A DNA stretch of 64,000 nucleotides, from positions 21,798,376 to 21,862,375 of the forward strand of contig NC_092567.1 of the NCBI RefSeq assembly GCF_037975245.1, read 5' to 3'. Origin of the DNA: Apostichopus japonicus (Eukaryota; Echinodermata; Holothuroidea; Aspidochirotida; Stichopodidae). Under the pieces are notes generated by a model. It was given only the letters and a program-made list of their open reading frames with translations. It made no database searches and had not been told where the DNA came from. Positions 13,801 to 16,800 of the stretch are shown piece by piece (position 1 is the first letter of the stretch; the number at the start of each line of letters is the position of its first letter). Made by a program: the position numbers and the translations under genes.

Positions 13801-16800
13801 TATCCATAGAAGTAAGTCATATTTTGAAGAAAAAAAAGTTGCATTTTGATGAAATTCTCAGTAATTTTCACTTTGATGAAATTCTAAATAAAGATAACAT
13901 TTTGAAGAATTTAAACACAAGGAGAAGATTTATAGTTGATGAAATTTAAGTCTACTGAAGTATATCTACCGTAATGACATGTCAAGACCCTCAAGTGTTT
14001 CAGTTACTTGTTTAAATTTGCTTTAACTTGGCTTACTCTCTGATATTTTATTCGCTACAGATTTACCCAAAATGGCGTTACCACCTTGCCATGCATTTGC
14101 ACAGTTTTATGTTTGTGACGGTGAACTCTCCTGTCAGCTCTACCAGAGATCAGCAGACATGGTGAGAAAGCGAAATGAATTACTTTCATTTTTAGTCGGC
14201 TGAAAAACAATATTTTATTCGCTACAGATTTACCCAAAATGGCGTTACCACCTTGCCATGCATTTGCACAGTTTTATGTTTGTGACGGTGAACTCTCCTG
14301 TCAGCTCTACCAGAGATCAGCAGACATGGTGAGAAAGCGAAATGAATTACTTTCATTTTTAGTCGGCTGAAAAACAATATTTTATTCGCTACAGATTTAC
14401 CCAAAATGGCGTTACCACCTTGCCATGCATTTGCACAGTTTTATGTTTGTGATGGTGAACTCTCCTGTCAGCTCTACCAGAGATCAGCAGACATGGTGAG
14501 AAATCGAAATGAATTACTTTCATTTTGAGTCGGCTGAAAACCAATATTTTATTCCCTACAGATTTACCCAAAATGGCGTTACCACCTTGCCATGCATTTG
14601 CACAGTTTTATGTTTGTGACGGTGAACTCTCCTGTCAGCTCTACGATGGTGAGAAATCGGAACGAATCACTTTCATTTTGAGTTGGCTGAAAAGAGATAT
14701 TTTATTTTGGTACAGATTTACCCAAAATGGCGTTACCACCTTGCCATGCATTTGCACATGTTTATGTTTGTGACGGTGAACTCTCCTGTCAGCTCTACGA
14801 TGGTGAGAAATCGGAATGAATCACTTTCATTTTGAGTTGGCTGAAAAGCGATATTTTATTCGCTACAGATTTACCCAAAATGGCGTTACCACCTTGCCAT
14901 GCATTTGCAAAATTTTATGTTTGTGACGGTGAACTCTCCTGTCAGCTCTACGATGGTGAGAAATCGGAACAAATCACTTTCATTTTTAGTCGGCTGAAAA
15001 GCGACCTGACTCGTAATTTTCAAGTTGGCAGCCCGAACTTCCTGTTCTTTTCTGTATTTTCTCAGCTGTATTTTGTTGGATCTTCGCCAGAACACAAAGC
15101 GGTGTTACCCCACAGGGCAATTAAAAGGAAAGAAAAGTTACTTCTGAGCATGTTAATTAATTCCACCCAGTTGGGACAATTCTTATCTATACTGTAATGT
15201 CATGTCCCGCTTCAGAACACTCGTAGTGTCAGTATGAGCAGTATGAATATCATGTTTCTATCAGATCAAGGTTAGGAACTGTACATACTGTCATTATGAG
15301 TTCTTTGGAGCATGACATGGGAGCACAGTACAGAGTGGTATTAGCACTAGGAAATTGTCCCAGCTGGCTGATTTATTCCCTTCAATACGGAATCAAGAAG
15401 GATGAAATTCTGAGATAAAACCTTTAAAGTTTCGTAAATGAAATTATGAAACGTTATATTACATGTATGGGAAGCAAAACATTACAAAGAAGAAATATTT
15501 TGCTTCTCATTGTTGTGAAAGTCTCGATCGTTTATATTTGAATAGTATTATTGTACGTTTTGTCTCTGCGGCTGCACCTGTATGTATTGATATCGTTATG
15601 TACCATTAAAACTGAAGATAAGAAGTATTAAATTGTTAGGCAATGATTGAGTTGTATTGTAATATTAAAGAACTCACAAAATTATCATGTCTATTTGTAT
15701 AAATGTCAAATGAGTCAATAAAAGAGATGAAAAAAAAAGAAAAAAAGATTACATATATATGGGACATTGATCTGTATTGAATGAAACAAGTTGCTACTTT
15801 AGAGCAGCAAAATGATTGTAACCATATGTAGCTATTTTAGAAATGAGGGGAATCCAATTATGTGTGAATACTAGAATGGCTTGATGAGAGTATTACACAA
15901 AGTAAACAATGCATCACTAATTACAGACTTCTTAAGGACTCATAGTACTTATTACTGTATATTCTGTTTGGGGAAAGACTATACACTAATACTCAATATA
16001 CTTTCTGTTCCGAAAATGAGTTGTCATAACCTTTTAAACTAAAACTTAAAAAAAATTAGTTATGTTAAATGTTTTGGATGGACAGCAGATGAGCAGCAAC
16101 TGCCAAGTTCGGTCAAAGTTGGTGGTGGATATGTGGGCCCGTGTAGGGGGATGGTACAAATGGGGTATACAGGTATTTTTGGAGGGTGAGAAGGAACTTG
16201 TGAGTACATGTTTTATGACATATTTATGTTCTGTGTTTTGTTTCCCTTCCAACAGGGGTTGGGCGTTCCTTTCAACATTGCCAGTTACGCCTTGCTCACC
16301 TACATGATCGCACACGTTACTGGTCTGAAACCGGGAGACTTCATCCACACTCTTGGTGATGCTCATGTCTACCTTAACCACATAGAACCATTAAAGAAAC
16401 AGGTTAGTCGTTTATCCTTTCAGACCTTGCAAGAAAAATGTTGAAAGCGCTGAACCAAAATGTCTCGGTATGAGGGTGTGGCAGTCTAGACATTCAAAAC
16501 ATTCAATTTGTTAGTAATCTATGGTAACTCTGTGTCATTGATTTCTTAGGTTGCAGGAATGGGGGGGGGGGATGTGGTTAAGGGAGTTAGGGTAAACTCC
16601 TTTTATGTCAAACTGGAGTAGCATACTTGTATGCAATGGTCACAAATTGATAAAACTGCATTGAACCAAAATTTGGGTGTTCCAAAATTAATACAGTCCA
16701 AATTCCACAATAAAAAGTTCAAAAGGTATTATGATACATGATGGAAACTCTTCGGATATCAGAATTTTTAAAAGGTCCAAATTTTATACTGTGCTCTATT

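Follow-up and report, generated by a model that had tools for sequence, protein, structure and literature searches.

A tandem array of six copies of the fourth coding exon in the thymidylate synthase gene of Apostichopus japonicus

The thymidylate synthase gene and its locus

The window, by which we mean the whole 64,000-nucleotide stretch of Apostichopus japonicus DNA analyzed here, carries on its plus strand a complete thymidylate synthase (TYMS) gene, in which an array of exon 4 copies lies between coding exons 3 and 5 (Table 1). With copy 1 serving as exon 4, the conceptual product is 324 amino acids long and matches the PF00303 profile from end to end (1-266 of 266, E 4.6e-120), which makes it a full-length member of the family. 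Compared with solved thymidylate synthases, the same product has its best match (E 1.1e-152) in chain 2rd8_A, which we take to be the human enzyme. A primer pair published for A. japonicus thymidylate synthase has a perfect site in exon 2 and a site with two mismatches in exon 3; the product amplified between them is upstream of the array and uninformative on exon 4. The protein itself has been reported in the gut of this species (PMC11050598; papers identified by PMC number are cited here from extracts of their text).

Table 1. Coding exons of TYMS and elements of the exon 4 array, numbered from the first base of the window
Feature	Positions	Strand	Remarks
Coding exon 1	10854-11091	+	boundary and translation
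Coding exon 2	11763-11942	+	translation; published A. japonicus forward primer at 11787-11804
Coding exon 3	12925-13095	+	translation; published reverse primer site 13037-13055, 2 mismatches
Whole tandem array	14043-15003	+	units of ~167, then ~153 bp
Exon 4 copy 1	14061-14161	+	intact, 101 nt
Exon 4 copy 2	14228-14328	+	intact, 101 nt, identical to copy 1
Exon 4 copy 3	14395-14495	+	intact, 101 nt, one synonymous difference
Exon 4 copy 4	14562-14648	+	truncated, 87 nt
Exon 4 copy 5	14716-14802	+	truncated, 87 nt, two amino-acid changes
Exon 4 copy 6	14869-14955	+	truncated, 87 nt, one amino-acid change
First of five intercopy introns	14162-14227	+	predicted branch point A at intron position 42 (by eye)
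Exon 5	16256-16402	+	translation
Exon 6 (last coding)	16916-17053	+	translation

A first reading of the locus, made from the sequence only, had taken thymidylate synthase to be single copy, and we found one locus only in the 671,581,487-base assembly (35 contigs). The PF00303 search of the genome gave nine matches from 12 scored candidates, all at the TYMS gene of the window and including four of the six exon 4 copies, and neither this search nor DNA searches found a second thymidylate synthase locus of the PF00303 type in the assembly. DNA searches with the intact and the truncated unit likewise found no copies of the array elsewhere in the assembly, a missing match being no proof of absence.

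Anatomy of the array

The fourth coding exon, which carries the catalytic cysteine, is present in six tandem copies, whose acceptors fall exactly where the sequence-only reading had placed them, at the exon starts of Table 1. Sequence and translation together confirm that each copy has an acceptor, the PPCHAF motif, and a donor, and the introns between the copies, previously put at about 66 bp, measure 66, 66, 66, 67, and 66 nt in order. All six copies are preceded by TACAG at the acceptor and followed by a GTGAGAA donor. Since the donor, a CTGAA element, and the TACAG acceptor are unchanged from copy to copy, none of the copies appears visibly disabled for splicing. TRF delimits the array at 14043-14951 with a period of 167 and a score of 1438, and also at 14493-15004 with a period of 153; this score, together with the identity of copies 1 and 2 over their 167-nt exon-plus-intron unit, shows that the resemblance is not due to chance. 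Five distinct unit sequences occur among the six units. Adjacent homologous exons, each with its own splice sites and all within one gene, constitute a tandem exon duplication.

The copies had been described as six 101-nt exons encoding the same peptide, a description that applies to copies 1-3, which encode the same 34 residues, and fails for copies 4-6. In the latter, a net loss of 14 nt near the 3' end takes out the residues QRSAD, and copies 5 and 6 are substituted as well (Q to H and F to V in copy 5, Q to K in copy 6). Judged by eye, the alignment with the solved enzyme places QRSAD at Q214-D218 and the catalytic cysteine at C195; R215 and S216 bind the substrate phosphate. An array of six equivalent copies is therefore ruled out, three of them being truncated and unable to serve as exon 4. 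The 14 nt lost from copies 4-6 are purine-rich and, as a conjecture, might once have formed a splicing enhancer.

Reading-frame outcomes of exon 4 use

All 64 subsets of the six copies were translated conceptually together with the flanking TYMS exons. Native enzyme results from three of them, namely, those using copy 1, 2, or 3 alone. The downstream, C-terminal frame is kept in 24 subsets, which combine one of copies 1-3 with any number of copies 4-6, and in 32 a stop precedes the last junction by more than 50 nt. Use of all six copies leads to an early stop and would destroy the TYMS frame. A single 87-nt copy used alone leaves exon 5 frameshifted and yields a 259-amino-acid product, and skipping of all six copies yields 230 amino acids. 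Two intact copies joined to each other, for instance, copies 1 and 3, give a premature stop. When an 87-nt copy follows an intact one, 29 residues from another frame are added to the product and no stop is introduced; this other-frame reading of copy 5 matched no Pfam family. Thus, the idea that the frame breaks whenever the exon is used twice is correct for any two of copies 1-3 and incorrect for one of copies 1-3 combined with any of copies 4-6. When subsets that join neighboring copies are removed, 21 remain, of which 13 keep the frame, with three native, and three have an early stop. Reasoning from these outcomes, a normal mRNA takes at most one copy, so that the gain in dosage once suggested as a benefit of copy number does not follow, and we reject it.

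Constraints on splicing within the array

The intercopy introns stand apart in length from those sampled elsewhere in the genome: 43 introns estimated from myosin and chaperonin exon pairs were all at least 183 nt long, against 66-67 nt between the exon 4 copies. The sample had comprised 44 estimates (in two sets of 17 and 27), from which one of 99 nt was dropped because both matches lay within a single 613-amino-acid open frame. Mean intron length in A. japonicus is given as 1,845 bp in the final table and as 1,286 bp in the text of PMC10344927. Simultaneous binding of U1 and U2 is proposed to meet a steric limit at about 50 nt between the 5' splice site and the branch point (PMC7969005). With the branch point placed by eye at position 42, the introns of the array would fall under this limit, and their short spacing could prevent the joining of neighboring copies. 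Steric exclusion is unable to stop copies 1 and 3 from being joined, and nothing that we found forbids the joining of nonneighbors. Speaking against steric exclusion, introns as short as 56 nt undergo splicing in human cells (PMC8363638). The extract of PMC9013439 contains nothing on frame or steric limits.

Pairing of the docking-selector type, sought between the intron or exon unit and either flanking intron, was no better than in shuffled sequences: the best duplex was matched or beaten by 7, 24, 12, and 15 of 30 shuffles in a scan that used mononucleotide shuffles and coarse 40-nt steps. The array unit showed no unusual fold either (z -0.94, with 31 of 200 shuffles as good). As for the interchange of copies in frame that characterizes mutually exclusive exons, copies 1-3 can replace one another and copies 4-6 cannot. 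The sequence-only reading had seen in the array the layout that precedes mutually exclusive splicing. This proposal is supported in part: the spacing is compatible with the steric exclusion of neighbors, but we found nothing to keep nonneighbors such as copies 1 and 3 apart, docking-selector pairing did not turn up in our scan, and copies 4-6 cannot replace the others.

Origin of the array

A screen for comparable repeats covered 140 kb of the genome, in twenty 7-kb pieces chosen arbitrarily on six contigs. Five contained a tandem array with a period of at least 60 bp and at least three copies, and eight contained any array with a period of at least 60. The window itself contains other arrays, with periods of 140-168. 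Tandem expansions are common in this genome, and since they are so frequent, one that happens to bear an exon needs no special cause. Two of the arrays in the window have features of their own: at 18375-19042, just downstream of TYMS, 150- and 168-bp units alternate, each with a donor-like CTTCAGGTAAGT recognized by eye, and 38129-39674 holds 9.6 units of ~165 bp that by eye look tRNA-like, as in a tRNA-derived SINE, ARAGORN and Rfam calling no tRNA in this latter array.

Among the six exon 4 units, 5 of the 87 shared exon columns are variable versus 13 of 66 intron columns (Fisher p = 0.011); the variable columns number one in the exon and four in the intron for copies 1-3 and three and seven, respectively, for copies 4-6. 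Exons have changed less than introns, which, within these small numbers, fits a constraint on the intact copies. Apart from the deletion junction, the shared exon of copy 4 is free of substitutions. Together with the difference between exon and intron variation, this speaks against taking the neutrality of every copy for granted. One exon column, next to the deletion, and three intron columns set all of copies 4-6 apart from copies 1-3, which indicates that the deleted form itself was multiplied. The introns flanking the array contained no older, decayed remnants of exon 4, and we reject the presence of such copies there, the only matches being 8-11 nt long.

Discussion

We consider the array to be, fairly probably, the product of a recent and largely neutral tandem expansion, in which each functional mRNA uses one intact copy and the others are skipped. 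We propose that unequal crossing-over or slippage, as in the formation of minisatellites, gave rise to several rounds of tandem duplication of a ~167-bp segment in which exon 4 is accompanied by a branch point, an acceptor, and a donor of its own. A net loss of 14 nt toward the 3' end of one copy would have followed, and multiplication of this damaged version would have produced copies 4-6. A functional mRNA would contain, between exons 3 and 5, just one of the three intact copies, which encode the same peptide, the remaining copies being skipped; the joint use of intact copies would bring in the premature stop, and such misspliced messages would presumably decay. Neighbors would probably be kept apart by an intron too short to accommodate the U1 and U2 snRNPs together. 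We suggest that the array is tolerated because neighbors probably splice together poorly, because any one intact copy suffices, and because an intact pair runs into a premature stop, and that it most likely has no new function.

It is also conceivable, though rather unlikely, that the window represents a polymorphic and perhaps mildly harmful allele; exon 4 would then be present once or a few times in the other haplotype, or in most animals, and these would supply most of the enzyme. That copies 1 and 2 are identical, which suggests a recent change, would agree with such an allele, as would the fact that the one haplotype examined yielded a single locus.

Doubtful to a greater degree is a selected splicing valve, in which multicopy or truncated-copy messages would be made to lower enzyme output. 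The 32 subsets whose stop precedes the last junction by more than 50 nt could serve this purpose, and in the regenerating gut the protein falls to 0.07 of normal at 2 days, 0.09 at 7 days, 0.11 at 12 days, and 0.13 at 20 days, a decrease for which the extract of PMC11050598 gives no link to splicing. Against a valve, the commonness of arrays in the genome makes a selective cause unneeded, and neither pairing nor an unusual fold was found in the scans described above. We give equally little credence to a variant in which the intact copies compete for one place in the message, transcripts that use two of them are degraded, and the truncated copies serve as decoys. Should a splicing valve exist, nucleotide supply would be set by the choice of exon and not by transcription.

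An artefact of assembly, the true locus having one or few exon 4 copies, is very improbable. The genome of the window fits, closely but not exactly, the 2023 A. japonicus assembly, built from 64x HiFi reads with a mean length of 14.7 kb (PMC10344927). If the two are the same, the reads average about 15 times the length of the array, and an error across this ~1 kb is unlikely. The five distinct unit sequences also argue against an artefact, and yet, since copies 1 and 2 do not differ over their 167-nt unit, the count of six may be wrong by one. Finally, a Dscam-like mechanism, in which RNA pairings competing for a docking site would make the copies mutually exclusive and to which the tandem layout of homologous exons might point, is rejected as highly improbable, the duplexes of our coarse scan being no better than those of shuffles and the copies being either the same in peptide or broken.

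The array is thus a tandem exon duplication, a known kind of structure, and is unusual in its copy number and in its host gene. We classify it in this way and not as a set of mutually exclusive exons, since three of the copies cannot make the enzyme and splicing is here predicted from DNA. Literature searches for thymidylate synthase with exon duplication, tandem exon duplication, or sea cucumber found no report of the array; what was retrieved for thymidylate synthase with exon duplication concerns, by its title and the beginning of its abstract, another gene, B7-H3. The human TYMS gene has a 28-bp tandem repeat near its 5' end, which, although in the same gene, is noncoding and unrelated to exon 4.

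Exons Ab and 3 of human U2AF1 may be regarded as the nearest known relative in kind, by analogy. These are tandem 67-nt exons, and inclusion or skipping of both leads to stops and NMD (PMC5224494); like them, the TYMS copies are tandem, and the intact ones have a length that is no multiple of three. The U2AF1 exons are two copies that differ by seven amino acids and have been kept through vertebrates (PMC5224494). The TYMS array has six copies, three encoding the same peptide and three truncated, and its splicing is predicted. In the LPA gene, copies of the kringle KIV-2 VNTR are joined in frame in the message. The VNTR resembles our array in the tandem repetition of exon-bearing units inside a coding gene and differs from it in that the repeat forms a large part of the coding sequence (PMC11201333), whereas two intact TYMS copies are not joinable in frame. 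Exons 4a and 4b of OGDH, which a branch point close to the 5' splice site makes mutually exclusive, resemble the TYMS copies in the short intron between duplicates and, if our prediction is right, in a branch point that lies ~25-46 nt from the donor and so within the steric limit proposed; however, the OGDH branch points have been mapped and the isoforms differ in function (PMC7969005), whereas our branch point is a prediction by eye and the intact TYMS copies do not differ in peptide.

If expressed alleles carry six copies, an essential enzyme survives with 3 of 64 exon combinations normal. The locus would then offer a natural test of how short introns and frame-dependent decay enforce the use of a single exon before the encoded proteins diverge, and it may show the duplication of an exon at the outset, while this is still neutral.

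Additional features

On the minus strand of the window, 22591-22662 gives an Rfam tRNA match of 44.7 bits that is not reported by ARAGORN, and open frames at 45185-53216, also on the minus strand, resemble by eye what we take to be an FKBP4/5-type immunophilin with TPR repeats. The 16,099-base mitochondrial contig of the assembly is best translated with the echinoderm code, AAA being read as N and AGA as S, as judged against COX1 sequences. A separate 31-kb contig holds, at 13728-17354, broken and rearranged copies of mitochondrial COX1 and its neighbors, representing either nuclear mitochondrial DNA or a misassembled fragment.
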